A stretch of DNA of 32,433 nt from a virus. The notes below the pieces were generated by a model. The model saw only the letters and a list, made by a program, of their open reading frames with translations. It had not been told where the DNA came from and searched no databases. The stretch spans positions 1 through 32,433 of the IMG/VR virus record IMGVR_UViG_3300022701_000186; one strand, written 5' to 3'. Position 1 is the stretch's first letter, and every line of letters begins with the position of its first letter. A program made the position numbers and the translations under genes. Below, piece by piece: positions 4,759 to 24,666 of the stretch.

Positions 4759-5367
4759 ATGGCTTTAATTGGATATGCCCGCATTTCTACACAACACCAA
4801 AGTTTAGACATGCAAATAGATGCACTTAAAAAAGAAGGGTGCATAAAAATATTCTCTGAGACAGTCAGTGGCGCCAAAGCTAATAGACCTCAATTTACAG
4901 CATGCCTAGATTACCTTAGAGAAGATGATACTATTGTTGTATGGAAATTAGATAGATTAGCTCGTACACTAAAAGAATTATTACATCTGATAAAATATTT
5001 TGAAGATAAAAAAATACATTTCGTATCTATTACTGAAAAGATCGATACTAAAACAGCCATGGGTAAATTTGCATTTCATTTATGTGCCTCTATGATCGAG
5101 TTCGAACGTGATGTTATTAGAGAGCGTGTCAGTGCAGGCCTTAAAGCTGCCCGTGCACGTGGCAATCAAGGCGGCCGCAAATACTTACTTAGTAAAGAAA
5201 AACGTCAACTAGTATATGATTTATATGAGACTAAACAAATACCAGCTAAAAAAGTAGCAGAGCTTGTTGGTATAAAGAAATCACTAGTTCTTAAATACGT
5301 ACGCGAAATGAAACTAGAGAAAAAAAATCTTGAGTTGAAAACAGAAACAATAGAGAATAATAAGTAG
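4759..5367 (+). CDS. Serine recombinase (resolvase/invertase family)
   Basis: A 202-residue small serine recombinase that cuts and rejoins DNA through a phosphoserine intermediate. The catalytic domain starts GYARISTQHQSLDMQ, with nucleophile Ser10 and Arg8. The second motif VWKLDRLAR gives Asp65, Arg66 and Arg69, and the long dimer helix carries FERD (Glu116-Arg117) and RERVSAGLKAAR. Residues 140-185 are a helix-turn-helix (AKKVAELVGIKKSLVLKYV) that binds the crossover site. The size fits the gamma-delta/Hin group, not the large integrases, so it more likely resolves, inverts or regulates than integrates. It has its own promoter at 4688-4715. Confidence 0.93.
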   Translation: MALIGYARISTQHQSLDMQIDALKKEGCIKIFSETVSGAKANRPQFTACLDYLREDDTIVVWKLDRLARTLKELLHLIKYFEDKKIHFVSITEKIDTKTAMGKFAFHLCASMIEFERDVIRERVSAGLKAARARGNQGGRKYLLSKEKRQLVYDLYETKQIPAKKVAELVGIKKSLVLKYVREMKLEKKNLELKTETIENNK

Positions 5368-6192: not shown

Positions 6193-6429
6193 CTATTGAA
6201 TATAAACAATAAATGGAGACATATGAATAATTAAGTTTATTAATATACTTAAAGTCACTGTCATAATAAAACCAAATGTAGATATAAAGAATATCATCAT
6301 AAAGAATAATATAGGCAATATAACTAGAAATGGAATGATATATAATACAGGCATTAAGGCAATTACACCTATGATTGCTAATGCTAATATAATGGGTTGC
6401 TCGGTAATTTTTACGGTCTCTTGTTTCAT
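6193..6429 (-). CDS. Small multi-span membrane protein
   Basis: A 78-residue protein with a short charged N-terminus (MKQETVKITEQP) and then about 65 nearly uninterrupted hydrophobic residues, enough for two or three membrane spans (PIILALAIIGVIALMPVLYI; FLVILPILFFMMIFF; GFIMTVTLSILINLIIHM). The size and layout are compatible with a holin, antiholin or superinfection-exclusion protein, but no family signature is visible and no endolysin is adjacent. It is cotranscribed with its leftward neighbours; the upstream gene ends 4 bases before it. Confidence 0.6.
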   Translation of the reverse strand: MKQETVKITEQPIILALAIIGVIALMPVLYIIPFLVILPILFFMMIFFISTFGFIMTVTLSILINLIIHMSPFIVYIQ

Positions 6430-6433
6430 AAAA

Positions 6434-6616
6434 TTACCTATCTAATTCTTCTATTATAGATTCCATCCATTCGATAGTTTCTAAATCTTGTTCTTTTAAA
6501 AGATTAAGGCATTCATTATTTAAATCTTCATATGAAATTTCACCATTTAAATATTTAATACCTGCTTCTTTAAATTTATTATTTCTTTCTTCTGTTCTAA
6601 AATATTTCTTTGTCAT
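6434..6616 (-). CDS. Small helical hypothetical protein
   Basis: A 60-residue charged protein, first of the leftward trio. AAGGAGTT lies 6-8 bases before the ATG and is the strongest canonical Shine-Dalgarno in the accessory region. The sequence (NNKFKEAGIKYLNGEISYED; LKEQDLETIEWMESIIEELD) suggests two or three helices. Small phage proteins of this kind are often adaptors or inhibitors; no specific match is known to me. It is transcribed from the divergent promoter at 6642-6670. Confidence 0.6.
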   Translation of the reverse strand: MTKKYFRTEERNNKFKEAGIKYLNGEISYEDLNNECLNLLKEQDLETIEWMESIIEELDR

Positions 6617-6641
6617 AAGTTTAACTCCTTTTTTAATGCTT

Positions 6642-6670
6642 ATAATACTAGTATAGCAAGAATTAGTTAA
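6642..6670 (-). promoter_or_regulatory. Leftward promoter overlapping the GTTAA repeats
   Basis: On the minus strand TTAACT (6670-6665) and TATTAT (6647-6642) are separated by 17 bp, a good sigma70 layout for the trio ending at 5794. The -35 lies inside the first GTTAA copy of the repeat at 6666-6682, so a bound regulator would control it. Confidence 0.55.
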
Positions 6671-6682
6671 GAAATAGTTAAT
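6666..6682. promoter_or_regulatory. Paired GTTAA operator, second copy
   Basis: GTTAAG-AAATA-GTTAAT (6666-6682) repeats the pattern GTTAAC-AAATC-GTTAAC of 4687-4703, with the same 11-bp period and a conserved AAAT in the middle. Both sit in divergent promoter regions of the accessory block, so one regulator probably binds both. The regulator itself is not identified. Confidence 0.55.
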
Positions 6683-6716
6683 ATCAATGGTTTAAAAGGG
6701 TAAAATATTACATATA

Positions 6717-6757
6717 TTGCTTTTTTTCTAAGAATAATGATATTATGTAACTAGGGG
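6717..6757 (+). promoter_or_regulatory. Promoter of the cytosine methyltransferase gene
   Basis: TATTAT (6741-6746) is a good -10. A weak -35 (TTGCTT, 6717-6722) is 18 bp upstream. Seven bases after the -10 comes GGGG (6754-6757), the expected initiation point, and a second run of five G (6766-6770) serves as the ribosome site for the ATG at 6782. Confidence 0.5.
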
Positions 6758-6781
6758 TTTAAATAGGGGGTATACATTTTA

Positions 6782-7762
6782 ATGAAAGTGCTTGATTTAT
6801 TTTCAGGTATTGGAGGTTTTTCTCTAGGTTTAGAATGTGCAGGATGGGAAACTATAGCCTTTTGTGAGATTGAACCTTCATGTAATAAAATTCTATCAAA
6901 ATATTGGCCTGATATACCTATTTTTGACGATATAACAAAATTATCTGCAAACGATATTGAATCTTCTGTTGATATTATTTGTGGTGGCTTTCCTTGTCAG
7001 GATATTTCCATAGCTGGCAAAAAAGCTGGTATAGGTGGTTTAAGATCAGCATTATGGAAACAATATTTAAGGTTAATAAATGAAATTAGACCCAAATATG
7101 CAATTATCGAAAACGTGGCAAACCTTCGTAGTAATGGACTTATTACCGTCCTGCAAGATTTATGGCAGATCGGGTATAATGCAGAATGGCATTGCATACC
7201 AGCTTCCGCCATTGGCGCGCCTCACCAAAGGGATCGCATCTGGATCGTGGCCAACCCCGACAACAAGGGATGCAACAATAACCAAGGCAAGACCACCAGA
7301 AAAAATGATAAGAAAAGACGGCAGGAATGTTCTGCGAACTCCATCACTGGCAGAAACATTATTGCAAAAGAAAAACTTTCCTTATACGAAACAGGATTTA
7401 CAAAAGAAACAACAGGGGCAAAATTACAAAACAGCAAAACAATTTTGGCCAACCCCGACTGCGAGGGATTACAAAGATACAGGCAAGCTGGAGGTTTTAG
7501 CCAAATACTCAAAGAAGAAAAGATTAGCTTGTTCCGTTGCAGCAGAGGAGTTGAGCAATGGGAAGTCGAGCCAGATATCGCAAGATTAAAGGATGGTAAA
7601 CTTAACGCAGATTGGGTGGAATGGTTGATGGGATTTCCTGTGGGATGGACAGAAGGTTTAACACGTAAACAAAGGTTGATAGCTCTTGGAAATGCCTTAG
7701 TACCGATTATTCCAGAGATGATCGGTGTTTGTATACAAAATTATGAAAACAGTAAGTTATAG
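6782..7762 (+). CDS. DNA (cytosine-5) methyltransferase
   Basis: A 326-residue C5 methyltransferase that adds a methyl group from SAM to cytosine in phage DNA. The motifs are in order: I, DLFSGIGGFS (5-14); IV, GGFPCQD (68-74) with catalytic Cys72; VI, ENV (110-112); VIII, QRDRIW (139-144); and IX/X, ALGNALVP (301-308). Residues 150-260 would form the target-recognition region and are unlike other families I know, while WEVEPDIARL and LNADWVEWLMGFPVGW before motif X are typical of phage enzymes. The 3' half has visibly higher GC than its surroundings and is open in a second frame (see 7080-7589). No cognate restriction gene is present, so self-protection against host restriction is likely. 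Confidence 0.93.
   Translation: MKVLDLFSGIGGFSLGLECAGWETIAFCEIEPSCNKILSKYWPDIPIFDDITKLSANDIESSVDIICGGFPCQDISIAGKKAGIGGLRSALWKQYLRLINEIRPKYAIIENVANLRSNGLITVLQDLWQIGYNAEWHCIPASAIGAPHQRDRIWIVANPDNKGCNNNQGKTTRKNDKKRRQECSANSITGRNIIAKEKLSLYETGFTKETTGAKLQNSKTILANPDCEGLQRYRQAGGFSQILKEEKISLFRCSRGVEQWEVEPDIARLKDGKLNADWVEWLMGFPVGWTEGLTRKQRLIALGNALVPIIPEMIGVCIQNYENSKL
7080..7589 (+). CDS. Candidate overlapping gene inside the methyltransferase (WPTP protein)
   Basis: A 169-residue +1-frame reading inside the methyltransferase gene. It has its own ATG, with AAGG 7 bases upstream. It encodes NGIAYQLPPLARLTKG followed by SGSWPTPTTRDA, and again WPTPTARDYKDTGK 66 residues later. From memory, this NGIAYxLPPL...SGxWPTPTxRD pattern occurs in stand-alone proteins of phages and metagenomes, so it is unlikely to be a random shadow. 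The DNA that reads as motif VIII (RDRIWIVANPD) in the main frame reads as SGSWPTPT in this one. Whether it is translated, or the product of an ancient frameshift, is unproven. Confidence 0.35.
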   Translation: MKLDPNMQLSKTWQTFVVMDLLPSCKIYGRSGIMQNGIAYQLPPLARLTKGIASGSWPTPTTRDATITKARPPEKMIRKDGRNVLRTPSLAETLLQKKNFPYTKQDLQKKQQGQNYKTAKQFWPTPTARDYKDTGKLEVLAKYSKKKRLACSVAAEELSNGKSSQISQD

Positions 7763-7771
7763 GGGGGCAGT

Positions 7772-8110
7772 ATGCCAAAAAAGAAAATGCCAGAAGGCAA
7801 AAAATTTCCAAAAGGCGTTAGTGGTAATCCTAATGGACGTCCAAAAGGTAGAATATCTTTTATACCAGCTATTAAACAAGCGCTAGCAGAATGTGTTGAT
7901 GATAATAAAGGTGACCCAATTCAGATGCGTGATGCCTTAGTTAAAACACTTTTAAATAAAGCCTTAGGTGGTGATATGAAAGCACTTGAATATGTTATAG
8001 ATCGTATTGATGGTAAAGCTTTACAAAATGTCGAAATGGATGCGCGAGTCGAAATATCAAAAGACAAATTACATAAAGTAGCAAAGGCCATAATAGATGA
8101 ATCAAAATGA
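7772..8110 (+). CDS. DUF5681-like protein, candidate small terminase subunit
   Basis: A 112-residue basic protein. The N-terminus (FPKGVSGNPNGRPKGRISF, residues 13-31) is the hallmark of the DUF5681 family, often found next to phage terminase and methyltransferase genes. The rest is helical (IQMRDALVKTLLNKALGGDM; ALEYVIDRIDGKALQ). A run of six G ends four bases before the ATG. Its last 14 bases overlap the start of the first DPPY methyltransferase. It could be the small terminase, which binds the packaging site, because no other candidate lies before the large subunit; this is contextual inference. Confidence 0.75.
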   Translation: MPKKKMPEGKKFPKGVSGNPNGRPKGRISFIPAIKQALAECVDDNKGDPIQMRDALVKTLLNKALGGDMKALEYVIDRIDGKALQNVEMDARVEISKDKLHKVAKAIIDESK

Positions 8111-8192
8111 AATGATATTTAAAGAAAATAGAATAATAACTAAACTAAATGATATTTGGCAATTAGGTAATCATAGGTTAATGTGTGGTGAT
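8097..8192 (+). repeat. 5' cassette repeat, copy 1
   Basis: These 96 bases at the start of the first DPPY methyltransferase match 8863-8958 with only four differences (766-bp offset). They begin with the 14-base junction ATGAATCAAAATGA, which holds both the start of this gene and the stop of the upstream one. The repeat forms the left edge of an exchangeable methyltransferase cassette. Confidence 0.85.
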
Positions 8193-8876
8193 AGTACTGA
8201 TATTAATCATATAAAAAAGCTTATCAATAATAATAAAATTGATATGTTATTTGCAGATCCACCTTATGGAATGAATAAAATAGGTTATAGAAATAATAGA
8301 ATTGGGGGAACAATTCAACCTGGTAATAATTTTATTCCTTTTAATGATAATATAGATAATACAATTAAAGTATTTAATTTAATACAACATTTTGATATTC
8401 CTATCCAAATATGGTGGGGCGCAAATAATTATGCTAGTCATTTACCTAATACAAATAATTGGATTGTATGGGATAAAAGAATTGAAGATAAACAAAAAGA
8501 TCGTCAATCAGATTGTGAACTTGCATGGTGTAAATCTCAATTTAAGTCTATTAGGATTTTTCGGCATTTGTGGAAGGGATTAATAAAAGATTCTGAACGC
8601 ATGCAAAAAAGAATACATCCAACTCAAAAACCAATTGCCTTAGCTGAATGGTGTTTTGAAGAATTAAGAGTTGATAATAATATACTAGATCTTTTTGGTG
8701 GTTCAGGCTCAACACTTATTGCATGTCAAAATACAAATCGTACTTGTTATATGATGGAGCTTCATCCTTACTACTGCGATACAATATTAAAGCGCTATAT
8801 TAAAGAATTTAATAAGCAGCCAGTTAATTTATTAAATAATAAAACGTATGATGAATTAAGTTATGAATCAAAATGA
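8097..8876 (+). CDS. DNA adenine/cytosine-N4 methyltransferase, first tandem copy
   Basis: A 259-residue amino-methyltransferase (N6-adenine or N4-cytosine). DPPYG (54-58) is the catalytic motif IV and comes before the SAM-binding motif LDLFGGSGST (197-206), the order of the beta class. HPTQKPIAL before motif I is typical. The N-terminus (WQLGNHRLMCGDST) is the YhdJ/ParB-methylase style. The first 96 and last 123 bases are nearly identical to those of the next gene, while the middle is unrelated, so target specificity probably differs. It overlaps the gene upstream and the gene downstream by 14 bases each. Confidence 0.92.
   Translation: MNQNEMIFKENRIITKLNDIWQLGNHRLMCGDSTDINHIKKLINNNKIDMLFADPPYGMNKIGYRNNRIGGTIQPGNNFIPFNDNIDNTIKVFNLIQHFDIPIQIWWGANNYASHLPNTNNWIVWDKRIEDKQKDRQSDCELAWCKSQFKSIRIFRHLWKGLIKDSERMQKRIHPTQKPIALAEWCFEELRVDNNILDLFGGSGSTLIACQNTNRTCYMMELHPYYCDTILKRYIKEFNKQPVNLLNNKTYDELSYESK
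8754..8876 (+). repeat. 3' cassette repeat, copy 1
   Basis: These 123 bases at the end of the first DPPY methyltransferase match 9718-9840 at 119 positions (964-bp offset). They encode the common tail PYYCD-ILKRYIKEFNKQPV... and end in the junction that starts the next gene. The identity exceeds what protein constraint alone requires, indicating recent duplication or recombination. Confidence 0.85.
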
Positions 8877-8958
8877 AATAATATTTAAAGAAGATAGAAT
8901 AATAACTAAACCAAATGATATTTGGCAATTAGGTAATAATAGGTTAATGTGTGGTGAT
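8863..8958 (+). repeat. 5' cassette repeat, copy 2
   Basis: Second copy of the 96-base block found at 8097-8192, at the start of the second DPPY methyltransferase. Four substitutions separate the copies, with no indels. Confidence 0.85.
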
Positions 8959-9840
8959 GCTCTAAGAGAAGAAAACATTGCATTATTATTAAATGGTAAC
9001 AAAGCCGACTTCTGTTTTATCGATCCACCTTATGGCATTAAAATAGATAAATGGGATAATCCTATTGATGAAAAGGTATGCTTATCATTAGTAGATAAAT
9101 TTACAAAAGAAAACAGCTTTTTTGCATTTACACATCAGATGCCTAAAATGCTCGATTGGTTAAAAAGTTTAGAGGATACTAAGTATAAATATAAAGATCA
9201 TATTGTATGGGTTAAGCGTGCACATAATTCACCAACTCCAGAAATTTTAAGAACACATGAAACCTTAATGATATATAAAAAAGGTAAGAAAAAATATGTA
9301 AAAACTAAAGGACTATATGCCGATGTTAAATGCCCCAACCTCTATTATGATCTTGCCAATATCAAATCTTTTAAAAGATATATAGGAGCACTGTGGAAAC
9401 AAATAGAAACGGGTGAAAAACAAATGAAAAAATATTCAGATAAAGCAAATCAAGCATATAAGTTTATGAATCATGGTCATGACACAGACGTAGCACCTAA
9501 AGAAACAAACTTTACTAATGTCTGGTCTTTTTTACCTACTAATAAAACTAAACTTAATGAAAAAAATCGTCTTGACCACCCAACCATAAAACCGATATTA
9601 CTTATAAATCGTATTGTTGAATTATGCGCGGGCGATAATGAGATTGTACTCGATATGTTTTTAGGTTCGGGTACCACCCTGCTTGCATGTGAAAATACTA
9701 ATAGGATCTGTTACGGTATGGAGCTTAATCCTTACTACTGCGATATAATATTAAAGCGCTATATTAAAGAATTTAATAAGCAGCCAGTTAATTTATTAAA
9801 TAATAAAACGTATGATGAATTAAGTTATGAATCCGAATGA
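8863..9840 (+). CDS. DNA adenine/cytosine-N4 methyltransferase, second tandem copy
   Basis: A 325-residue amino-methyltransferase. DPPYG is at 54-58 and LDMFLGSGTT at 263-272, preceded by HPTIKPILL, again the beta order. The central part (THETLMIYKKGKKKYVKT; FTNVWSFLPTNK) differs fully from the first copy and is about 65 residues longer, while both ends are nearly the same. The two enzymes therefore likely share a scaffold and differ in target. The start overlaps the first copy by 14 bases, and its end overlaps the large terminase by 14 bases. Likely role: modify phage DNA before packaging to evade restriction. Confidence 0.92.
   Translation: MNQNEIIFKEDRIITKPNDIWQLGNNRLMCGDALREENIALLLNGNKADFCFIDPPYGIKIDKWDNPIDEKVCLSLVDKFTKENSFFAFTHQMPKMLDWLKSLEDTKYKYKDHIVWVKRAHNSPTPEILRTHETLMIYKKGKKKYVKTKGLYADVKCPNLYYDLANIKSFKRYIGALWKQIETGEKQMKKYSDKANQAYKFMNHGHDTDVAPKETNFTNVWSFLPTNKTKLNEKNRLDHPTIKPILLINRIVELCAGDNEIVLDMFLGSGTTLLACENTNRICYGMELNPYYCDIILKRYIKEFNKQPVNLLNNKTYDELSYESE
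9718..9840 (+). repeat. 3' cassette repeat, copy 2
   Basis: Second copy of the 123-base block at 8754-8876. It ends in ATGAATCCGAATGA, a two-base variant of the junction, which here starts the large terminase instead of another methyltransferase. Confidence 0.85.
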
Positions 9841-11182
9841 TATTATTACTAACGGTTGTTATCATCACTTAAGTGCCTATGCGCAATATATAAAAGATGA
9901 TTTTCAAAGACCCGATCATATACAAACTATTATTAAAGCGTTAAGTAAAGTCGAATCAGGAGAAATCAAACGCTTAATGATAAATTGCCCTCCGCGTTTT
10001 GGTAAGTCATATCTAGTATCTACGATATTTCCCACTTGGTATATTGGACGACATCCTAAAAAAAATATAATCTTTACTACATACGGGCAAAGCCTAGCAG
10101 ATGATTTTGGCAGGCAGGTACGTAACATTGTTGAAGATGACAAGTTTAGGTTTATATTTCCTAATGTAAAGCTAAGTCAAGATAGCGCTAGCGTAAAGAA
10201 ATTCGCAACCAATCTAGGCGGTATTTATTATGCAATAGGAGCAATGGGATCTTTAACTGGTAAGGGTGCGGATTTAATTATATGTGATGATATTTTGCGT
10301 AACAGAGCAGACGCAAATTCAGACACTATAAGAAAAAATATACTCGATTGGTACAAGTCTACATTATATACAAGGCTTGCACCGGGCGGCGCTATAGTTT
10401 TTATTAATACACGCTGGCACCAAAATGACCTTGCAGGGTACTTGCTTGAAAATGAAGGTGATTCATGGACGCATATTAACATGCCTGCTATATCAGATGA
10501 TGGGCATTCTCTATGGCCTGAGCGATGGCCTTTAGATCAGTTAGAAAATATTAAAAAAACAATTGGTTCTTATGAATGGTCTGCGCTTTATCAACAAAGC
10601 CCTGCGCCTGCAGATGGCGGCATGTTTAATAAAGGATGGTTTGAAATAGTAAATGCCAAAACAGTTGATAATGTAAAATCAATAAGATATTGGGATCGTG
10701 CTGCAACGGTTAAAAAAGATGGAAACGACCCCGATTGGACAGTTGGCGTTAAGATGTCAAAAGATAAAAACAACATTTTCTATATTGAAGATATAGTAAG
10801 GCTTAGAGCAAGTTCTCTTGATGTACAAAAAGCTATTCATAATACAGCAGTTCGTGATGGTACTCGTACTGTCGTAGGTTTAGAGCAAGATCCGGGGCAA
10901 GCTGGTAAGTCTGAAGTTGATTACTTAACTCGTATGCTTGCAGGCTTTAATGTTAAATCATTTAAGGTCACAAAAGATAAAATAACAAGAGCATCGCCAT
11001 TCTCTGCGCAATGTGAGGCAGGTAATGTCAAATTACTAAAAGGTGGTTGGGTTCATGATTTTCTTGAAGAATTATCTATGTTTCCATTTGGTGGACATGA
11101 TGATCAAACTGACGCTGCTGCAGGTGCACTAAATTATTTGACTGAAGATAGGTTTAGTTATGAAGCTATGGTAAGATGGTAA
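9827..11182 (+). CDS. terL: Terminase large subunit
   Basis: A 451-residue DNA packaging motor that translocates DNA into the prohead and cuts the concatemer. The ATPase domain carries Walker A CPPRFGKS (54-61), Walker B LIICDD (150-155) and a coupling-type segment FINTRWHQNDLAG. The RNase H-like nuclease domain follows, with candidate metal ligands Asp290 (RYWDRAAT), Glu353/Asp355 (GLEQDPG) and Asp425/426/429 (GGHDDQTDA). The length is usual for the family. It is translationally coupled to the methyltransferase upstream through the repeated 14-base junction, so packaging and modification genes are expressed together. Confidence 0.95.
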   Translation: MNPNDIITNGCYHHLSAYAQYIKDDFQRPDHIQTIIKALSKVESGEIKRLMINCPPRFGKSYLVSTIFPTWYIGRHPKKNIIFTTYGQSLADDFGRQVRNIVEDDKFRFIFPNVKLSQDSASVKKFATNLGGIYYAIGAMGSLTGKGADLIICDDILRNRADANSDTIRKNILDWYKSTLYTRLAPGGAIVFINTRWHQNDLAGYLLENEGDSWTHINMPAISDDGHSLWPERWPLDQLENIKKTIGSYEWSALYQQSPAPADGGMFNKGWFEIVNAKTVDNVKSIRYWDRAATVKKDGNDPDWTVGVKMSKDKNNIFYIEDIVRLRASSLDVQKAIHNTAVRDGTRTVVGLEQDPGQAGKSEVDYLTRMLAGFNVKSFKVTKDKITRASPFSAQCEAGNVKLLKGGWVHDFLEELSMFPFGGHDDQTDAAAGALNYLTEDRFSYEAMVRW

Positions 11183-11214
11183 AATCTAAATAATTCACAT
11201 TTACTAACTTTTGT

Positions 11215-11252
11215 TTTACACTAAAATTAACTACTTATAATCTTTCGGGGGG
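11215..11252 (+). promoter_or_regulatory. Late promoter with a G-run at the predicted start
   Basis: TTTACA (11215-11220) and TATAAT (11236-11241) are 15 bp apart (16 bp if TTTTAC is used). Five bases later a run of six G (11247-11252) covers the expected initiation point and lies five bases before the portal ATG, so the transcript would have a leader of only about ten bases. Confidence 0.6.
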
Positions 11253-11257
11253 AAGAG

Positions 11258-12760
11258 ATGACAAAGAAGAAAAATAAAGTTATCAATTTTGATGGCTGGG
11301 GAAATATACTTACTAATCTAGGCATTCGCGGTAAAGACAGAACACAATCTACTAATTACTTATATGATAATAGACTAGACGAAAATCAATTAATGAATTT
11401 ATATACTGGTGATGGCTTTGCTAAAAAAGTCGTTGATCTTATTGCAACTGAGATGACTAGAGAATGGTTTACAATTGAAGGTGATACTGATAATCTGATA
11501 GTAGGCGCATTAGATGAGATTGATGGTAAAGAAAAAGTCACCGATCTTATTAGATGGTCAAGATTATTCGGCGGGGCAGTTTTATTGTTGGGTGTTGACG
11601 ATGGTCAGGAATTAGATCAACCAATTAACTATAACAATATTAGAAAACTTGATTATCTACAGGTATTTGATAGACATCAAGTATGGTGGACGTTTAACGA
11701 TGTATATGGCGTTGAGTCTAGAAACTTTGGCAAGCCTGAATTCTATAGAATAAATCCTTTAAAAACAGCAGCAGCAGAAATCGTAGTACATGAATCCAGA
11801 ATAATAAAAATGGATGGTGAAAAGCTACCAGTGCGTCGCTATATCGATAATGATTACTGGGGTGATAGTGTATTACAACCTATCTATACACAATTAAAAA
11901 ATTTAGGTGCTGCTTATGGTGCAACTGCAAATATCATGGAAGATTTTGTACAATCTGTTTTAACAATTAACAATTTACAAGACATGTTAGCAGCGGGTGA
12001 AGATGAGTTAATTCAAAAAAGATTACAGATAATAGATACCTCAAGACATGTAGCAAATACAATATTACTTGATGAGAATGAAAGCTATACAAAGCTAGGT
12101 TCTTCTGTAGGTGGTCTTGATGGATTGATAGATAAATTTACATTAGCATTAGCAGCAGTGTCTGGTATACCAGTTACCTTCCTTATGGGGCAGGCGCCAG
12201 CAGGATTGCAAGCAACAGGTGCTAGTGATATCAGAATGTTTTATGATAATATAAAAGGAGAACAAGAAGATACTCTGCGTCCTGTTATCGAAAAGCTTAC
12301 TAAAATAATCATGTTATCTAGTGAAGGTGGCTTTGGTGGCCGTGAGCTAGAAAATTGGTGCATTAAATTTACTCCTTTATGGCAGCTAACTGATTCAGAA
12401 AATGCTACACTTAGAAAAACAATTGCTGAAACCGATCAGATATATATCAACACAGGTGTGTTAGATCCAAGTGAGGTTGCTATAGCACGTTTTGGAGGCG
12501 AAAGTTATTCGATGGATACTTTTATTGATAATGAGACAAGAGAAAACCCTGAAATGACTCCAGAAGATGTATCAGCTATTGAAGAGATTAGAAATACAGT
12601 AACTGAGATGGCTAGAAAAGAGCAAGAAGAAGAAATGATGGAGCAGCAAGAAGAAGAGGAAGAAGAGGAAGAAGAGCCAGAAATACCACAACAAAATGAA
12701 GATGAATTGAAAAGGGAAGATCGTTTTTTTGATATTTTAAATAAATTAGCTGAGAGGTAA
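11258..12760 (+). CDS. Portal protein (DUF1073 type)
   Basis: A 500-residue portal, the dodecameric ring at the capsid vertex through which DNA passes. It matches the DUF1073/anti-CBASS Acb1-associated portal style: LYTGDGFAKKVVDLIATEMT near the N-terminus, SRLFGGAVLLLGVDDG (about 105-121), a stem region, and GIPVTFLMGQAPAGLQATG before the C-terminal helices. The end is extremely acidic (about residues 450-485), with nine consecutive glutamates encoded by a GAA/GAG repeat, a place prone to length change. The start is fixed by the G-run leader. It follows the large terminase, the usual head-gene order. Confidence 0.9.
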   Translation: MTKKKNKVINFDGWGNILTNLGIRGKDRTQSTNYLYDNRLDENQLMNLYTGDGFAKKVVDLIATEMTREWFTIEGDTDNLIVGALDEIDGKEKVTDLIRWSRLFGGAVLLLGVDDGQELDQPINYNNIRKLDYLQVFDRHQVWWTFNDVYGVESRNFGKPEFYRINPLKTAAAEIVVHESRIIKMDGEKLPVRRYIDNDYWGDSVLQPIYTQLKNLGAAYGATANIMEDFVQSVLTINNLQDMLAAGEDELIQKRLQIIDTSRHVANTILLDENESYTKLGSSVGGLDGLIDKFTLALAAVSGIPVTFLMGQAPAGLQATGASDIRMFYDNIKGEQEDTLRPVIEKLTKIIMLSSEGGFGGRELENWCIKFTPLWQLTDSENATLRKTIAETDQIYINTGVLDPSEVAIARFGGESYSMDTFIDNETRENPEMTPEDVSAIEEIRNTVTEMARKEQEEEMMEQQEEEEEEEEEPEIPQQNEDELKREDRFFDILNKLAER

Positions 12761-12761
12761 C

Positions 12762-13007
12762 ATGTCATCATTTAAAAATAGAGCTTTGGAATTGCTAAAC
12801 TTGAAAAATTTTGTTTCAATAGATGAAGTTCAAAAGTCTCTTGATAGTGAAGTTATACGTGTTGCAGAAGAATTAAAAAAAATTAATAAGCGCATAGATA
12901 GCATTCATAATCGTATTGACATGAAAGAAGAAGAGCTTAAAGATTTGGAAATTGCTAAGCAAGTAAAATTAGATGAAATACATGAGTTATTCTATAAGGA
13001 AATTTAA
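12762..13007 (+). CDS. Small coiled-coil protein in the head module
   Basis: An 81-residue helical protein starting one base after the portal stop, with GAGGTAAC as its ribosome site inside the end of the portal gene. Residues 25-70 (VIRVAEELKKINKRIDSIHN and IDMKEEELKDLEIAKQVKLD) are a strong coiled coil. It sits between the portal and the head-fibre-like genes and could be a trimerisation or assembly helper for them. No family is recognised. Confidence 0.6.
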   Translation: MSSFKNRALELLNLKNFVSIDEVQKSLDSEVIRVAEELKKINKRIDSIHNRIDMKEEELKDLEIAKQVKLDEIHELFYKEI

Positions 13008-13010
13008 GCC

Positions 13011-13970
13011 ATGGATTTAAAAGATTTAGAAATTAATCAGTTAGTCATAGAGTGGCTTAGATATCATATACCTCGCTATATAGATAAAAACATTCCTATC
13101 CTAGTTGCAGATGAGGTCGATAAGATACCTCCTGCTATATCAATAAAAGATGCTTATATAAAAGAAGACGAACTTAATATTGAACTTACCTCAAATGAAG
13201 TTATTAATTTAGGTAATATTAAAGGCGACGCTGGTATTATGGGCAAAGAAGGTACCAGAGGGATTGGCATTAAAAGTGTAAAGATAACCGAAGGTCATTT
13301 AATTATTACATTGGATAATGATAACCAATTTGATCTTGGTAATGTAATAGGCCCTGCGGGTCCACAAGGTGAGTCTGTAACAGGTCCACCACCAGAACAT
13401 CGCTATGTAGAAAAAGATAATTGCATACAATTTAAACAGCCTGATGGAGAGTGGGGTATTTGTATACCCATAATCGATAAAAGGACTGTAAAGGTAGATA
13501 ATTATGGCGGCTCTATTGGTCAACCTATCATTACAAAGCTTAGCGTATTATTTGATAATATACTTGTTGATAGCAATGTTCAAAAAATAGATTTTACGGG
13601 CTCTGTTGATGTTACAAAGGTGCAAGATAAGTTTGTCAGGGTGCAAATAGGTCTTGTTTGGGAGACCTTAACAGCCGATACAGTCTTAGAAAATAATAAA
13701 GGATATATAATCGATGGAAATGTACAATTAAATTTAACCTTACCTGATAATTGCTATATTGGTGACACTATTGAAATTTTGATGGGAAGTGTTGAAGGAT
13801 TTAGGTTAGTAGCGCCTAGTGGCATTGATTTTTTTATGGGTAAAAAGCAAGTAGTTAACTATCTTGAAAATGCTCCTGGGCAAGTTAATTCTGCTTTGGC
13901 AATTAAATGTAATTATGCTAATCTAAAATATATAGTAACATCTTCAATGGGAAATTTTACTATTACATAA
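13011..13970 (+). CDS. Fibre-like protein with short collagen-like repeats
   Basis: A 319-residue protein. Residues 1-40 are helical. Two beta segments that each end in (D/N)LGN(I/V) lead into glycine-rich collagen-type stretches (GDAGIMGKEGTRGIG and GPAGPQGESVTGP). The C-terminal 105 residues form a beta domain that aligns with the C-terminus of the next gene: WETLT, NKGYI, LTLPDN, FFMGKK, and an end NLKYIVTSSMGNFTIT matching TEWIVLSPVGNLDIN. Collagen-like triplets favour trimeric fibres. Its place beside portal and minor head genes suggests a head fibre or decoration rather than a tail fibre. Confidence 0.65.
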   Translation: MDLKDLEINQLVIEWLRYHIPRYIDKNIPILVADEVDKIPPAISIKDAYIKEDELNIELTSNEVINLGNIKGDAGIMGKEGTRGIGIKSVKITEGHLIITLDNDNQFDLGNVIGPAGPQGESVTGPPPEHRYVEKDNCIQFKQPDGEWGICIPIIDKRTVKVDNYGGSIGQPIITKLSVLFDNILVDSNVQKIDFTGSVDVTKVQDKFVRVQIGLVWETLTADTVLENNKGYIIDGNVQLNLTLPDNCYIGDTIEILMGSVEGFRLVAPSGIDFFMGKKQVVNYLENAPGQVNSALAIKCNYANLKYIVTSSMGNFTIT

Positions 13971-13995
13971 TATATAAATTTGGGGGAATTTAAAT

Positions 13996-14484
13996 ATGGC
14001 AACTAATAATTCGTGGAATGCGGAATATAATAATGAGGACGGTCAACTACTGATCGGTTCAACATCACAAGATCAACCAATTGTAGGTACACTTACAGGC
14101 GGCGCAGGTATCGTAGTTACAAACGGCGACGGTAATATTACAATCGATGCAACAAAAGCAGAATTTTGGGAAGTCATTACAGACGCTACCCATCAAATGG
14201 AAATAGATAAATATTATCTAGCAAATAACGCTGCTCCTGTTGTGTTTACATTACCATTAACAGCAGCCGTAGGCACAGAGCTTTATGTTGTAGATATGCA
14301 AGCAGGTTGGGTAGTAGAACAGAACGCAAATCAGCAAATGCACTTCGGTAAAAAATCAACAACAGTTGGCATTACAGGTAATATAACTTCTACAAAGAAT
14401 TATGACTCTATGAGATTAGTATGCTCTGTTGCAGATACTGAATGGATTGTATTATCACCAGTTGGAAACTTAGATATTAACTAG
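13996..14484 (+). CDS. Head fibre/decoration-like protein, paralogous C-terminus
   Basis: A 162-residue protein. The N-terminal 50 residues (LLIGSTSQDQPIVGTLTGGA; NGDGNITIDA) match a short beta repeat common in phage fibres. The C-terminal domain (about 55-162) is homologous to the end of the gene upstream, sharing WEV/WET, DKYYL/NKGYI, LP, HFGKK/FMGKK and a closing IV(L/T)S(P/S)xGN. A run of five G ends nine bases before the ATG. Probably a homotrimeric surface protein that shares an attachment or capping domain with its neighbour. Confidence 0.65.
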   Translation: MATNNSWNAEYNNEDGQLLIGSTSQDQPIVGTLTGGAGIVVTNGDGNITIDATKAEFWEVITDATHQMEIDKYYLANNAAPVVFTLPLTAAVGTELYVVDMQAGWVVEQNANQQMHFGKKSTTVGITGNITSTKNYDSMRLVCSVADTEWIVLSPVGNLDIN

Positions 14485-14492
14485 GTAGTTTT

Positions 14493-14990
14493 ATGGCAAT
14501 TCAAAATTCTTTAAATAAAGAAAATTTGACTATTCAAAAAGATGGGGTTCAAATTGAGGATTTAACAAATACTCTTAATTTTCTGACCCCTTTTGTGCAT
14601 GTGTCTTCTGATGGTAATGGCACAGTTACTTTTTATCAACCTGATAGGATTTACGATACTAATCCCGGTCGTAGTTTAAACACAGCGTTTATACCAGATG
14701 TAAATCGCACATGTTCTATTATCTATACAGTTAGATTTCAAACATCAACAACGATTGGAGGTGGAACATCTGGTCAAGTTGATTTACAAATAAGCGATGA
14801 TAATATTTCTTATACAACTATCTCTTCGACATCATCTGGTATTAGTGGTGGTCTTATATTGGGTATAGCAATAACTCAGGATATAAGAGATTCATTAACC
14901 GCAGTAATTCCACCTAATACTTATGTAAAATTAACAACATCTGGTAATGCAACTATTACACTTGTGAATCAATATGAGGTGCATATTTAA
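14493..14990 (+). CDS. Probable structural beta-sandwich protein
   Basis: A 165-residue protein rich in threonine, serine and glycine with alternating strands (VDLQISDDNISYTTISSTSS; IPPNTYVKLTTSGNATITL). The pattern resembles small phage fibre or decoration domains that bind other virion proteins or host surface sugars. It follows the two fibre-like genes after 8 bases and abuts the minor head gene at its stop, so it belongs to the virion module. No family can be named with confidence. Confidence 0.6.
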   Translation: MAIQNSLNKENLTIQKDGVQIEDLTNTLNFLTPFVHVSSDGNGTVTFYQPDRIYDTNPGRSLNTAFIPDVNRTCSIIYTVRFQTSTTIGGGTSGQVDLQISDDNISYTTISSTSSGISGGLILGIAITQDIRDSLTAVIPPNTYVKLTTSGNATITLVNQYEVHI

Positions 14991-15872
14991 ATGGCAATAC
15001 CAAGTTCAGTAAAACAAGCTATAGCTAGGCGCAAAGCAGAAGGGATAAAGAAGAAAGGTGGTCGACCTCCTCAATGGTTATTTCCTGAATCTGTTGAACG
15101 TGAATATAGACGCAAGCTTTTTGACATAGTGGATATATTACAAAAATCTATAAGCGATACTTTATTAATGGAATTACCATCGCTATATAAACAAGCTAAT
15201 CAAGTCAATACAGACTCTATTAAATACGATCCTTGGCTAGTTAAACAAAATTTTGCTTTTATTCGTAGTGATGACTGGGCAAGAGATTTAAATAATTTAA
15301 TGAATGCCAGCAAAGTATTATTTGATAGAAGAATTCCGCAGGTAGAATCACTTACCTCTGATATTGCAAAAGAGACTTCTGACTTTAATCAAAAACAATT
15401 TGATAGGGTAACGCAGGCAGCATTAGGAGTTAATGTATTGGCAACCGATCCTGATTTGCAAACAAGGCTTAATGCATTTGCATTTCGTAATGCAGATTTA
15501 ATTAAAGATATTGGTGATAAAACTGTTAAGGATATTTCAGTAATTGCCAGCCAAGGTTTAACACAAGGTAAGGCATTAAGTGAAATAGAAAGTGAAATAC
15601 AATCGCGCTTTCCTATGGCAAAAAGAAGAGCTAAGACAATAGCAAGAGATCAGATAGCAACATTAAATGGTAACTTAACTAAGGTAAGACAGAAATCAGT
15701 TGGTATAGATAAATATAGATGGTCAACAAGCGGTGATGATAGGGTAAGGGATGAGCATAGAGAATTAAATGGTTTAATATTTAGTTGGGATAAGCCTCCA
15801 TCTATAGGTAATCCTGGAGATCCCATCAATTGCAGGTGCAGCGCTATACCTATCTTTGATGATTTATTATAG
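14991..15872 (+). CDS. Minor head protein (Mu F/SPP1 gp7-like)
   Basis: A 293-residue head morphogenesis protein. The C-terminal domain carries the family signature: RRAKTIARDQIATLNGNL, then YRWSTSGDDRVRDEHRELNG and the closing GDPINCRCSAIP. In SPP1 and Mu these proteins associate with the portal and are packaged in small copy number, possibly ejected with DNA. The N-terminal 200 residues are mostly helical. The start is the base after the previous stop. Its position after portal and before the protease/scaffold gene is standard. Confidence 0.85.
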   Translation: MAIPSSVKQAIARRKAEGIKKKGGRPPQWLFPESVEREYRRKLFDIVDILQKSISDTLLMELPSLYKQANQVNTDSIKYDPWLVKQNFAFIRSDDWARDLNNLMNASKVLFDRRIPQVESLTSDIAKETSDFNQKQFDRVTQAALGVNVLATDPDLQTRLNAFAFRNADLIKDIGDKTVKDISVIASQGLTQGKALSEIESEIQSRFPMAKRRAKTIARDQIATLNGNLTKVRQKSVGIDKYRWSTSGDDRVRDEHRELNGLIFSWDKPPSIGNPGDPINCRCSAIPIFDDLL

Positions 15873-15931
15873 TAAATCTGGTTGAAAAATTACTATTGCA
15901 AGTTGAAATAGTTTAATGTTAATATCGAATT

Positions 15932-15951
15932 AAAAGAATTATTTCTTTTTT
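15932..15951 (+). terminator. Weak terminator-like hairpin
   Basis: AAAAGAA (15932-15938) and TTCTTTT (15943-15949) form an AU-rich stem with a 4-base loop, followed by a few more T. It lies in the 106-bp gap after the minor head gene. The stem is weak, so it may act only as a partial terminator. I see no convincing promoter in this gap. Confidence 0.3.
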
Positions 15952-15978
15952 GTTTAACTTATAGGTTAATAAAATTAA

Positions 15979-17178
15979 ATGAAGAATGTAGCTCGTTTTG
16001 ACAGGGGGTTGGTCAAAAAAGCGATTGTAACCGATGAGGGTTACCTCCGTGCCGATGCTATAGTAACAAGAACAGGTGTTTTTACTTATATAAATGCCGA
16101 TGGTACTATTCGCAAAGAACTACGCCACCCTGATGATGTTTTTAAAGATAATAGTTTAGAAAGCATGAAGATGCGCCCAATAACCGACGGCCATCCACCA
16201 CAAAAATTAGTTGATGCAAAGAATTTTAAAGAACTTAGCGTAGGGTATACAGGTGAATCTGTAAATACTGATGGTAGGTTTATAGTAGCATCTATGATGG
16301 TAACTGATAGTAAATCAGTAAATGATATTAGAGATGGTAGAAAAAGAGAACTATCTTTAGGATATACAGTGGACTTGGAACGCGAAGATGGTGTTTATGA
16401 TGGTCAAGAATATACCCATAGACAAACAAACATAATATATAATCATTTGGCAATTGTAGATCGTGCAAGAGCTGGAAGTGAGGCACGTATACATCTAGAT
16501 GGATTAGGTGCAGAAGAGGTAATTAATAGCGATAGTATTGTTGCTATTGATTCGGATTATTCAAATCTAAATATAGGGGGAACTAAGATTATGGATGATA
16601 AATTTAGCATTGTTGCTTTAGACGGCTTAGAATATAAGGCTGCTCCAGAAGTTGCAAACGCATTCAAAAAATTTGATTCTGAAAAGTCAGAGTTAAATAC
16701 AAAAATTGATAGCTTAACAAATGAGCTTGATAAGTTAAAAGCTGAAAAAGATGAACTTTCATCTAAGCTTGACGAAATGAATTCAATAGATCATGAAGCT
16801 AAATTAAAAGAAGCTGTAAAAAGCAGAGTTAGTTTACTTTCAAAAGCTAATGAAATCTTAGGCAAAGAAGCAAGTGAAATTAACATGGATGAAATGGCTG
16901 ATAGAGATATTAAGGTATCTGTTATCAAAGTAAAGCGTCCTAAAGTAAATCTAGACGAAGCTAATGACACATATATCGAAGCTTGTTTCGATCTTATCGT
17001 AGAAGACTCAGCAGAAATAAAAGTTGAAGATTCAGAAAGTTTAAAAAAACAACGTGAAGCTTTATCTGTAAAATCAGATGCTGAAGATAAGAAAAAAATG
17101 AGTTCTGATGAAGCTTTTAAAGCATATGTAGATCGTTTAAAAAACGGTTATAAAATGACTGACAAAAAAGACAAATAG
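15979..17178 (+). CDS. DUF2213-type prohead protease/scaffold fusion
   Basis: A 399-residue protein. Residues 1-180 match the DUF2213 maturation-protease type: VKKAIVTDEGYLRADAIVTR, MRPITDGHPPQKLVD with a candidate catalytic His, KRELSLGYTVDLE with a candidate catalytic Ser, and NHLAIVDRARAG. From residue 205 onward it is a charged coiled-coil scaffold (LTNELDKLKAEKDELSSKL) ending in a helical C-terminus, which normally binds the capsid protein. An in-frame internal ATG at 16591 has its own G-run ribosome site, so the scaffold part can probably be made separately. It precedes the decoration and capsid genes, as expected. Confidence 0.85.
   Translation: MKNVARFDRGLVKKAIVTDEGYLRADAIVTRTGVFTYINADGTIRKELRHPDDVFKDNSLESMKMRPITDGHPPQKLVDAKNFKELSVGYTGESVNTDGRFIVASMMVTDSKSVNDIRDGRKRELSLGYTVDLEREDGVYDGQEYTHRQTNIIYNHLAIVDRARAGSEARIHLDGLGAEEVINSDSIVAIDSDYSNLNIGGTKIMDDKFSIVALDGLEYKAAPEVANAFKKFDSEKSELNTKIDSLTNELDKLKAEKDELSSKLDEMNSIDHEAKLKEAVKSRVSLLSKANEILGKEASEINMDEMADRDIKVSVIKVKRPKVNLDEANDTYIEACFDLIVEDSAEIKVEDSESLKKQREALSVKSDAEDKKKMSSDEAFKAYVDRLKNGYKMTDKKDK
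16591..17178 (+). CDS. Nested scaffold protein (internal start)
   Basis: In-frame internal translation would give a 195-residue scaffold beginning MDDKFSIVALDGLEYKA. A run of five G (16576-16580) lies 10 bases before this ATG, the same leader type used at the annotated gene starts, and the boundary coincides with the end of the protease domain. Lambda uses the same arrangement (Nu3 inside C). A large excess of scaffold over protease would follow. Not proven from sequence. Confidence 0.5.
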   Translation: MDDKFSIVALDGLEYKAAPEVANAFKKFDSEKSELNTKIDSLTNELDKLKAEKDELSSKLDEMNSIDHEAKLKEAVKSRVSLLSKANEILGKEASEINMDEMADRDIKVSVIKVKRPKVNLDEANDTYIEACFDLIVEDSAEIKVEDSESLKKQREALSVKSDAEDKKKMSSDEAFKAYVDRLKNGYKMTDKKDK

Positions 17179-17203
17179 TAACACTTAAGGGGGGAAAACT
17201 AAC

Positions 17204-17959
17204 ATGTCACAATTAAACTACAATTTCGATATGGTTATCGCACAGAGAGGAATGAAAGCTGATTCTGGTTTTGATAACGTATTATCTTATAATGCAGAAG
17301 AAAACATTGCATTTGGTATGGGCTTAGTACAAGGCGTTGCTGAAAATGGCTGCCAATTACCTAAGCTAAACGTTGCAGTATTATCATTTGATGCAGACTT
17401 TGTAACTGCTAACGACATCGATTTAGATGTTAACGGCGTTGCAATTACAACTGTTCCATTCAATACAGATCAAGCTACAACACTTGAAGATTTAAGAGCT
17501 GAATTAGATAGCATTGAAAACATCACAGCAGTATCTACAGGCGCTCGTGAAATCACTTTAACAGGTGCTGGTATTGTTGTTCTTTTAGAAAATATTGCAG
17601 TAACAAACGGTGCTTCACAAGCAAACGGTTCAGCTGCTTATTCTAATGGGCAAGGTTTTGTAGGGGTTGCTTTACTAGATCATGCAAGAGAGCAAACATT
17701 AGCAGGCGTTGCACAATATGACCAATATGAAGCGGTTTCAGTAATGAGCCAAGGTCGTGTTTACGTATATGTTGAGCAGGCAGTAGCTGTTGGCGATCCT
17801 GTTTACTTAAGAGTAAATGCAGGTGGAGATGCAGATGAGTTACCGGGGCAATTCAGAATGGATGCTGATGGTGGCGATGCAATTTTATTAAGTAGAGTGC
17901 GTTGGTTAAAAGGCGCAGCTGCTGATGGTTTTGCAGTATTAGAAATTAATTTAGTATAA
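17204..17959 (+). CDS. Capsid decoration/structural protein
   Basis: A 251-residue protein located directly before the major capsid gene, where DUF2190-like decoration proteins lie in related phages. The two ends (FDMVIAQRGMKADSG; VAVGDPVYLRVNAGGDADEL; AILLSRVRWLKGAAADGFAV) look like one beta-rich domain. Residues 55-130 form an inserted domain (LDVNGVAITTVPF; ATTLEDLRAELDSI; REITLTGAG) of the same type as that inserted in the sheath and baseplate J proteins. A run of six G ends nine bases before the ATG. Probably stabilises or decorates the capsid surface. Confidence 0.7.
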   Translation: MSQLNYNFDMVIAQRGMKADSGFDNVLSYNAEENIAFGMGLVQGVAENGCQLPKLNVAVLSFDADFVTANDIDLDVNGVAITTVPFNTDQATTLEDLRAELDSIENITAVSTGAREITLTGAGIVVLLENIAVTNGASQANGSAAYSNGQGFVGVALLDHAREQTLAGVAQYDQYEAVSVMSQGRVYVYVEQAVAVGDPVYLRVNAGGDADELPGQFRMDADGGDAILLSRVRWLKGAAADGFAVLEINLV

Positions 17960-17979
17960 AAACTTTTATCAATAATCTC

Positions 17980-17986
17980 GGGGGGG
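17980..17986 (+). promoter_or_regulatory. Seven-G leader of the capsid gene
   Basis: CTCGGGGGGGATT places seven G 7 bases before the capsid ATG, acting as the ribosome site. A weak -10-like TATCAA lies seven bases upstream of the run. This gene needs the highest expression in the genome, and it has one of the longest G-runs. Confidence 0.5.
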
Positions 17987-17993
17987 ATTCACA

Positions 17994-18941
17994 ATGTCTG
18001 AAAAAATAACTTCAGTAAATCTTGACGCAAACGAAACTGCGTTTTTCGCAAGAGAACTAGAATATATCAAAGCAAATACTTATGATGTATTATATCCAAC
18101 ATTAAAAGCAACTCAACTTATCCCAGTATCTACAAATGCTGGTGCAGGTGCTGAGTCAATTACATATCAACAATTTGATCAGTTAGGCTTAGCTAAGATC
18201 ATAGCAAATTATGCTGATGACTTACCACGTGCTGATATTAAGGGTAAAGAATTTACTTCACCTATAAGATCAATTGGTGCTTCTTATGGGTACAACGTTC
18301 AAGAAATTAGAGCGGCTCAATTTGCTAATCGTAACTTAACAGGTCGTAAAGCTAATGCAGCTAGACGTGCTGTAGAGCAAAAGATTAATAATATTGGTTG
18401 GTATGGTGAAGATGATAGCAATCTATTAGGTTTAGTTAATCATCCAAATGTAACAAGAGTAGCAGCTCCACAAAATGCTGGTGCAACTTCTACATTATGG
18501 GTTAATAAAACTCCTGATGAGATTTTAGCTGATATGAATAATTTAGTTAATGGTATTGTTGATTTAACAAATGGTGTTGAAGCTCCAAATACATTAATTA
18601 TGCCAATCGATCAATATACTTATATCTCTACTGTTGCAAGAAGTGCAACATCTGACACAACAATTTTAGAATTCTTCTTAATGAATTCTCCTTTTGTTAA
18701 CAGAGTTGAGTGGGTTAACGAGCTTAAAGGCGCAGCTGTAGGTGGCTTTGGTGTTGATAGTTCAGATGTTATGATTGCATATGATAACAATCCTGATAAA
18801 CTAACATTAGAAATACCACAACCTTTTGAGCAGTTTCCTGCACAAGAAAGAGGATTAGAGTTTTTAATAAATACTCATGCTAGATGCGGTGGAGTAATTG
18901 CATACTATCCGTTATCAATTTCTATAATGGAGGGAATTTAG
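17994..18941 (+). CDS. Major capsid protein (DUF2184 type)
   Basis: A 315-residue capsid protein of the HK97-fold superfamily, DUF2184 style. Recognisable stretches are FFARELEYIKANTYDVLYPT and LKATQLIPVSTNAGAGAESI near the N-terminus, YADDLPRADIKGKEFTSPIR, RRAVEQKINNIGWYGEDDSN, PNTLIMPIDQYTYISTVARS, and the C-terminal AQERGLEFLINTHARCGGVI. There is no N-terminal delta domain, so scaffolding is supplied by the separate upstream gene. The next 74 bases lead into a homing endonuclease gene that interrupts the head operon. Confidence 0.88.
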   Translation: MSEKITSVNLDANETAFFARELEYIKANTYDVLYPTLKATQLIPVSTNAGAGAESITYQQFDQLGLAKIIANYADDLPRADIKGKEFTSPIRSIGASYGYNVQEIRAAQFANRNLTGRKANAARRAVEQKINNIGWYGEDDSNLLGLVNHPNVTRVAAPQNAGATSTLWVNKTPDEILADMNNLVNGIVDLTNGVEAPNTLIMPIDQYTYISTVARSATSDTTILEFFLMNSPFVNRVEWVNELKGAAVGGFGVDSSDVMIAYDNNPDKLTLEIPQPFEQFPAQERGLEFLINTHARCGGVIAYYPLSISIMEGI

Positions 18942-18983
18942 TAAGCTTTAATTAAGGCATTGCTACTTTCCAATAGATAGTGT

Positions 18984-19017
18984 ATACTGCCTCTGAAAAA
19001 TTTATAGGAGGCAGTAT
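18984..19017 (+). promoter_or_regulatory. Hairpin covering the ribosome site and start of the GIY-YIG gene
   Basis: ATACTGCCTC (18984-18993) pairs perfectly with GAGGCAGTAT (19008-19017) across a 14-base loop. The right arm contains the GGAGG ribosome site and the first two bases of the ATG (19016-19018). RNA reaching through from the capsid operon would hide the start codon. In T4, homing endonuclease genes such as I-TevI are silenced this way on long transcripts. Confidence 0.65.
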
Positions 19018-19969
19018 GACATACAAGAAAAAAGTTTTAGGTATTTATATGATTACAAATTTACAAACTAAAGAGGTTTATATAGGTTCAAGCGTTAATT
19101 GCTTAAACCGTATTTGTGATCATAAAAAAGAGCTTAGAAAAAATAAACATCATTCTAGAATATTACAGGCATCATTTAATGAATATGGTGAAAGTAATTT
19201 TAGTTTTGAAATTATTGAACAACATGAAAATGTTGATAAAAGTTTTTTATATGAGAGAGAAAATTTTTATTTAAATGAAAATAGAGATAATCTTTTAAAT
19301 ACAGCTCCACGTGCCGAAAGTATTAAGGGTGTTAAAAGAACTGATGAGCATAAAAAGCTATCAAGTGAAAGAGCAAAAAAAACTTTTAAAGGCGTTACTA
19401 AAAGTGCAGAACATAAAGAAAAGTTAAGTAAAGCTAAATTAGGTAGAAAAAGAAGTCCTGAGACAATTGAAAAAATTAGACAAGCAGCATTAAAACAAAT
19501 GTCTGATCCTAATATGAGAAAATTGTTAAGTGATAAAGCTAAAGGTCGCAAGGTTTCTGAAGAAGTAAAAAAGAAAATTAGTGCTTCAAGTAAAAAACTT
19601 TGGGATAATGAAGAATATAGAAACAAAGTAAATGAGGCAAGAAGGATTGCTGTTAATAGCAAAGAGTATAAACAAAAACAATCTGAAGCATCAAAAGAAA
19701 GGTGGCAGGATCCTAAATTTAGGAATAAAGTAAATGAAGCAAGAAATGCAGCTATTAATACAGAAGATTATAAACAGAAAAGAAGTAAAGCAAGTAAGAA
19801 GCTTTGGCAGGATCCTGAATATAGAGAAAAGAAAATGAATAGTATGAAAAATATTTATAAAGATGAAGAATATAGAAATAAAATAAGCATAAGCTTAAAG
19901 AAAAAGAATATAGAGAAATATAGGAATAAAATTTTGGAATTAGAAAAATTAATTTCAAGTTTAGAGTAA
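19016..19969 (+). CDS. GIY-YIG homing endonuclease, free-standing
   Basis: A 317-residue protein from the ATG at 19016, chosen over an in-frame GTG at 18980 because AGGAGG precedes it. GIY (9-11) and YIG (22-24), with Arg32 nearby, define the GIY-YIG nuclease domain (about 1-95). The rest is a basic chain of NUMOD3-like DNA-binding repeats: TDEHKKLSSERAKK, SAEHKEKLSKAKLGRKRSPE and VSEEVKKKISASSKKLW, then three repeats of the type (K/R)xWxDPE/KYRNKVNEAR. It sits between the capsid and the neck genes and is a selfish gene that spreads to endonuclease-lacking relatives. Internal repeats may vary in number. Confidence 0.92.
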   Translation: MTYKKKVLGIYMITNLQTKEVYIGSSVNCLNRICDHKKELRKNKHHSRILQASFNEYGESNFSFEIIEQHENVDKSFLYERENFYLNENRDNLLNTAPRAESIKGVKRTDEHKKLSSERAKKTFKGVTKSAEHKEKLSKAKLGRKRSPETIEKIRQAALKQMSDPNMRKLLSDKAKGRKVSEEVKKKISASSKKLWDNEEYRNKVNEARRIAVNSKEYKQKQSEASKERWQDPKFRNKVNEARNAAINTEDYKQKRSKASKKLWQDPEYREKKMNSMKNIYKDEEYRNKISISLKKKNIEKYRNKILELEKLISSLE

Positions 19970-24410: not shown

Positions 24411-24592
24411 GAGAAGATTTAAGTCAAGAGTATATTATTTGGCGTCTTGTTTTTGAGAAAGTTGCAACATTAGAAGAGCTTGAAACTCATTGGAGTTTAG
24501 ATGATGTTGCTAGGGCTAATGCTTTATTAGATATGAAAAATACTTATGAAGCATATGAGTATGAAAAAATGAAGGCTAAGAGCAAGCGATGA
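24338..24592 (+). CDS. Tail chaperone extension made by -1 frameshift (T part)
   Basis: The -1 frame after the slippery site encodes about 84 residues: SGDRYWQAKYTSKQSS, then LSQEYIIWRLVFEKVATLEE and THWSLDDVARANALLDMKNT, ending AYEYEKMKAKSKR. The WSLDDVARANALLDM pattern is typical of the T domain, which binds the tape measure protein. It has no start codon of its own in a suitable place and is expressed as a fusion with the chaperone at 23958. Its TGA overlaps ATG 24589 (ATGA), the usual coupling to the next structural gene. Confidence 0.82.
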   Translation, partial: SGDRYWQAKYTSKQSSRSKELGKLREDLSQEYIIWRLVFEKVATLEELETHWSLDDVARANALLDMKNTYEAYEYEKMKAKSKR

Positions 24593-24628
24593 CAACAGTT
24601 AAACTATTAGATTATAAAACCAATCTTT

Positions 24629-24651: not shown

Positions 24652-24666
24652 TTAGGGAGTTTTTAT

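Follow-up and report, generated by a model that had tools for sequence, protein, structure and literature searches.

Tandem phage methyltransferase genes with near-identical ends and dissimilar cores in the overlap between the terminase genes

How did two adjoining DNA methyltransferase genes, almost the same at their ends and dissimilar at their centers, come to lie within a tailed-phage terminase operon? The question is raised by the metagenomic virus record IMGVR_UViG_3300022701_000186, analyzed over its full 32,433 nt and referred to here as the window. The genes of the locus run in the order C5 methyltransferase, terS, MT1, MT2, terL (all on the plus strand), and portal gene. The first encodes a Dcm-like C5-cytosine DNA methyltransferase (6782..7762; PF00145, E=5e-51) and is followed by a gene for a DUF5681 protein, the putative small terminase subunit terS (7772..8110; PF18932, E=3e-16), which is 54% identical to the product of the gene immediately 5' of terL in a related 42-kb record, IMGVR 3300040801_003073 (here L005). 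MT1 (8097..8876; PF01555, E=2e-17) and MT2 (8863..9840; PF01555, E=1.5e-33) are predicted N6/N4 DNA methyltransferases that have no ParB domain, MT1 of the WWGANxY subfamily and MT2 of another, and the large terminase subunit gene, terL (9827..11182; PF03237/PF17289), comes next. Against PF01555 (N6_N4_Mtase), with its curated cutoff of 26.7 bits, MT1 scores 64 bits and MT2 scores 117 bits; in both, DPPY (motif IV) precedes motif I (FxGxG), the order of the beta class, with DPPYG at residues 54 to 58 and motif I close to the C terminus (LFGGSGS in MT1 and MFLGSGT in MT2). A serine recombinase gene of the resolvase family (4759-5367) is present 3 kb upstream of the pair. Farther downstream, a GIY-YIG nuclease gene resembling a homing endonuclease (18980-19969) lies directly 3' of the major capsid gene and contains internal repeats (19614-19887) spaced roughly 100 nt apart at 70% identity, and a 264-residue open reading frame among the tail genes (24589-25383), with CxxC pairs and no Pfam match, is possibly another homing nuclease.

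At each of the three boundaries from terS to terL, a 14-nt overlap, ATGAATCNNAATGA, contains the stop codon of one gene together with the start codon of its successor. The terS stop/MT1 start (8097..8110) and the MT1 stop/MT2 start (8863..8876) both read ATGAATCAAAATGA, and the MT2 stop/terL start (9827..9840) is a 2-nt variant, ATGAATCCGAATGA. The original prediction placed this junction at exactly these positions, and all three copies were recovered: a search of the window allowing one mismatch returned matches at 8097, 8863, and 9827 and nowhere else. Three matches occurred in 0 of 100 dinucleotide shuffles of the window, which rules out a chance origin, and the pattern was absent from the unrelated loci retrieved for comparison. 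As the terS/MT1 junction is the first copy, the repeat extends outside the methyltransferase pair on both sides.

The ends of the two genes are matched over a much greater length. The 5' block of MT1 (8097..8192) has its copy in MT2 at 8863..8958, with 92/96 nt identical and all four differences nonsynonymous; the 3' blocks (8754..8876 in MT1 and 9718..9840 in MT2) are identical at 119/123 nt, one of the four differences being silent and located in the junction. Alignment thus bore out the near identity first described for 96 and 123 bases, with four differences in each. The blocks are direct repeats; the inverted pairs reported measure 14 to 20 nt and are 75 to 88% complementary. Upstream of the 3' block, a weaker match continues as far as 8674/9638, giving 209 nt at 84%, and covers motif I. 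Identity breaks off sharply, past RLMCGD at the left edge of the core and ahead of MEL at its right edge; the breakpoints lie in or beside DNA for conserved methyltransferase motifs (just past RLMCGD and at MEL-P-YCD, respectively). Synonymous differences per synonymous site were 0/15.2 in the 5' block and 1/20.2 in the 3' block, against 12/19.8 in the motif I segment formed by the 87 nt directly upstream of the 3' block; between the terL genes of the window and L005, the value was 140/288. Because synonymous sites are nearly identical in the blocks and strongly diverged next door, and because identity stops so abruptly, protein conservation alone is ruled out as the source of the match, and after correction at the protein level, the ends stay far more alike than the centers. 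The end proteins of MT1 and MT2 are 88 to 91% identical, none of the other enzymes listed exceeds 53% in this region, and a tree of the ends pairs MT1 with MT2 (SH-aLRT, 99). On this evidence, the ends have a very recent common ancestry that the cores do not share.

The exchangeable core of MT1 comprises DPPYG, the recognition region, and S-adenosylmethionine (SAM) motif I (8193..8753); that of MT2 (8959..9717) is 66 residues longer. The MT1 core is 60% identical to that of L014, 58% identical to that of Psychrobacter phage pOW20-A, and 33% identical to that of MT2, and the MT2 core shows at most 30% identity to anything compared, with MT1 only its 25th-best match. A profile of MT1 subfamily cores, made from phage relatives with MT1 held out, gave 258 bits for the MT1 core and 63 bits for the MT2 core, the latter lying within the range of 59 to 69 bits given by enzymes of other subfamilies; with the general PF01555 model, the preference was reversed (96 bits for the MT2 core and 47 bits for the MT1 core). 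A tree of the cores failed to place MT2, whose branch was very long, and did not reject sisterhood of MT1 and MT2 (p=0.8); it is therefore the profile scores and percent identities that carry the argument for different ancestry of the cores. These indicate that the cores belong to different subfamilies, so that the genes are recombinational mosaics and not a plain duplicate; duplication followed by divergence was ruled out, as the MT1 core is nearer to enzymes of other phages than to the core of MT2, in spite of the near identity of the ends. The centers had been called unrelated, a description that stands for subfamily and length but not for DPPYG and motif I, which are common to both. In structural models, MT1 has a predicted beta-class fold and motif order (best Foldseek E value of about 1e-8) like those of the N6-adenine methyltransferases M1.HpyAVI, M.MboIIA, M.RsrI, CcrM, and M.BceJIV, although identity to the solved structures in the Foldseek alignments is only about 12 to 22%; the AlphaFold model of MT2 is of low quality over its core (mean pLDDT, 58).

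We consider it probable that two cassettes were placed in the terS/terL overlap, that one of the genes was recored by homologous exchange, and that the products serve in protective methylation. Each cassette would consist of the body of a beta-class amino-methyltransferase, free of a ParB domain, with its start and stop codons within the 14-nt repeat. One gene would then have taken a new core, with its DPPYG, recognition region, and SAM motif I, through crossovers in or beside the conserved-motif DNA, the left one just past RLMCGD and the right one at MEL-P-YCD, and the outcome would be near-identical ends enclosing cores of two subfamilies. A competing account, to which we give roughly a one-in-five standing, holds that MT1 and MT2 are long-standing tandem neighbors, with unrelated cores from the outset or as old duplicates, and that gene conversion has homogenized their ends without any exchange of cores. 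Genes in tandem lend themselves to conversion, segments conserved throughout the family are present in the ends, and the core tree leaves sisterhood unrejected; were the two enzymes acquired separately, conversion of this kind would leave the same sequence as core exchange. An old duplicate is nevertheless unlikely, given that the profile score puts the MT2 core outside the MT1 subfamily, and the ends also have in common poorly conserved stretches (MNQNExIFKExR and KEFNKQPVNLLNNKTYDELSYES) that independent enzymes would not already have shared.

L005 is informative about the site of the cassettes. Its TerL is 83% identical to that of the window, and the two records are collinear over most of 6274-18371, with 77 to 85% DNA identity in the common stretches; homology breaks at 6777 and resumes exactly at 9827, the third junction copy and the start of terL (by blastn, window 9827-11182 aligns with L005:1347-2702). 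L005 contains neither cassette, and its terS overlaps its terL directly through ATGAATCCGAATGA (L005 1347-1360), identical to the third junction copy of the window; no PF01555 gene was found anywhere in the 42-kb record. With the cassettes missing and the junction the same, a zero-cassette state exists, and relatives do not always carry exactly these two cores. Because the repeat is itself the terS/terL overlap, gain or loss of cassettes by recombination at the junctions would leave the end of terS and the start of terL correct. In the simplest reading, the CG form of the junction would be the old terS/terL overlap and the AA form would have been brought by the 5' ends of the cassettes, terS gaining its AA ending upon their arrival. 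Gain is only tentatively preferred to loss, because recombination between copies of the junction, with removal of cassettes, would lead to an identical picture, and polarity cannot be read from terS, which differs by 46% from that of L005. In L005, an HNH-type open reading frame (L005:2696-3409) follows immediately after terL and is absent at that place in the window.

The gene before terS has its own history. The slot directly upstream of terS is occupied in L005 by a stand-alone ParB gene and in the window by the Dcm-like gene, and the upstream, ribosome-binding sequences (window 6700-6790 and L005:440-535) are nearly identical through GTTTAAATAGGGGGTATACAT; the gene in this slot has thus been exchanged right at its start codon, Dcm in one and ParB in the other. 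MT1 and MT2 match positions 180 to 443 of the PHROG 498 profile, the methyltransferase half (E<=6e-50), the L005 ParB protein matches positions 36 to 188, and a search of the window for PF02195, the N-terminal ParB half, gave no match. The window and L005 therefore carry complementary halves of a protein usually found as one fusion. Fusions of N6_N4 methyltransferases to a ParB fold are reported to be frequent in phages in a survey of ParB-fold fusions (PMC12704722), and nearly all of the 80 IMG/VR relatives of MT1 surveyed here were ParB-methyltransferase fusions, many with terS directly downstream. MT1 and MT2 resemble these PHROG 498 fusions, whose genes occur beside terS/terL, in the methyltransferase half; they differ in having no ParB half and in their placement between terS and terL. 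A common end joined to a differing core thus arises in other phages also, the shared part in those cases being the ParB domain: L059 has two tandem ParB-methyltransferase genes before terS that match at 89% over the initial 377 nt and are unrelated thereafter, and Staphylococcus phage TPWB-09 has tandem ParB-methyltransferases before terS with 506 nt in common at 70%.

As to function, protection of DNA from host restriction is plausible from what is known of the family and is the likeliest role suggested by the gene content, because three DNA methyltransferases of two chemistries adjoin and no restriction enzyme was recognized among the open reading frames scanned. MT1 and MT2, expressed from the packaging operon, probably act late in infection on target sequences that differ between them and would thereby shield the packaged genomes. 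It is also conceivable, at rather longer odds than end conversion, that they methylate the packaging site and regulate cutting by terminase, the matching ends being a by-product; the pac site of phage P1 is controlled by adenine methylation, MT1 and MT2 sit between terS and terL, and in many phages a ParB-methyltransferase relative immediately precedes terS. L005, however, uses a related terminase for packaging although its record contains no PF01555 gene, and replacement of a core would alter the recognized site, a poor fit with control of a fixed pac site. With regard to expression, AAGG precedes both MT1 and the terL gene of L005, and no Shine-Dalgarno-like sequence was found before MT2 or terL in the window, so that translation of these two must rest on coupling; the cassettes probably rely on termination-reinitiation.

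A false joining of two methyltransferase genes through repeats during metagenome assembly is very improbable: the record is metagenomic and the end repeats measure about 100 nt, but all frames are intact across the three overlaps, and a second contig, IMGVR 3300022696_000244, has both cassettes in the same arrangement with 18 differences in 15,386 bases, one of them in MT2. Searches of IMG/VR with MT1, MT2, the ends only, and terS found no carrier except this near-identical contig; a genome-contig collection searched with terL and with MT1 yielded no relative, and phage DNA searched with the MT2 core yielded no match. Among about 80 terL relatives, that contig aside, no methyltransferase was recognized between terS and terL. 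Locus L003 has a 798-residue terL open reading frame (L003:6473-8869) that is apparently split by an intein-like segment, and an HNH-type open reading frame (L003 8128-8670) overlaps this segment. In no relative recovered by these searches did the ends enclose a different core or flank one or three cassettes, and ongoing exchange is therefore put forward as a hypothesis. The proposal that identical ends allow cassettes to be added, deleted, or swapped accordingly holds as far as the zero-cassette state with its intact junction in L005, and not for an altered core or number; "array" is generous wording for two copies. We would tentatively go further and regard the terS/terL overlap as a standing landing site at which methyltransferase bodies bearing the repeat and common ends are loaded, stacked, and recored, a suggestion that is possible but clearly less secure than the origin proposed for this one locus. 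If it were true, individual phages would carry different sets of protective methylation with packaging undisturbed.

The closest known process, by analogy, is the exchange of recognition domains at conserved-motif DNA. PMC3983042, citing Furuta and Kobayashi 2012, describes the movement of target recognition domains between nonorthologous Type III methyltransferases of Helicobacter through recombination within sequences that code for conserved methyltransferase motifs. Our locus is similar in that a recognition center would have been replaced and the ends kept, with exchange at conserved-motif DNA, but the exchanged part also holds the catalytic DPPY and SAM motif I, and the genes are orphan, phage borne, and tandem, in a terminase operon with a common start/stop repeat. 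PMC7394358 catalogs Type I systems in which the hsdS specificity genes are duplicated but distinct and can be switched by recombination; these hsdS copies too are adjoining homologous genes with common segments around different recognition parts, whereas here whole methyltransferases are involved, with no inverted copy and no recombinase immediately adjacent. The present case would work like these, with the catalytic and SAM motifs exchanged as well and with the operon kept readable by its start/stop repeat.

Phages have to match the shifting restriction systems of their hosts, and a mosaic of shared ends and different cores, at a site that is empty in a related phage, suggests that protective enzymes may be gained, lost, or recored by recombination. 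Exchange of a core between fixed ends would, if true, offer a simple, one-step recombination route to a new methylation specificity, and it would link recognition domain exchange, which is familiar chiefly from the restriction systems of bacteria, to phage counterdefense.
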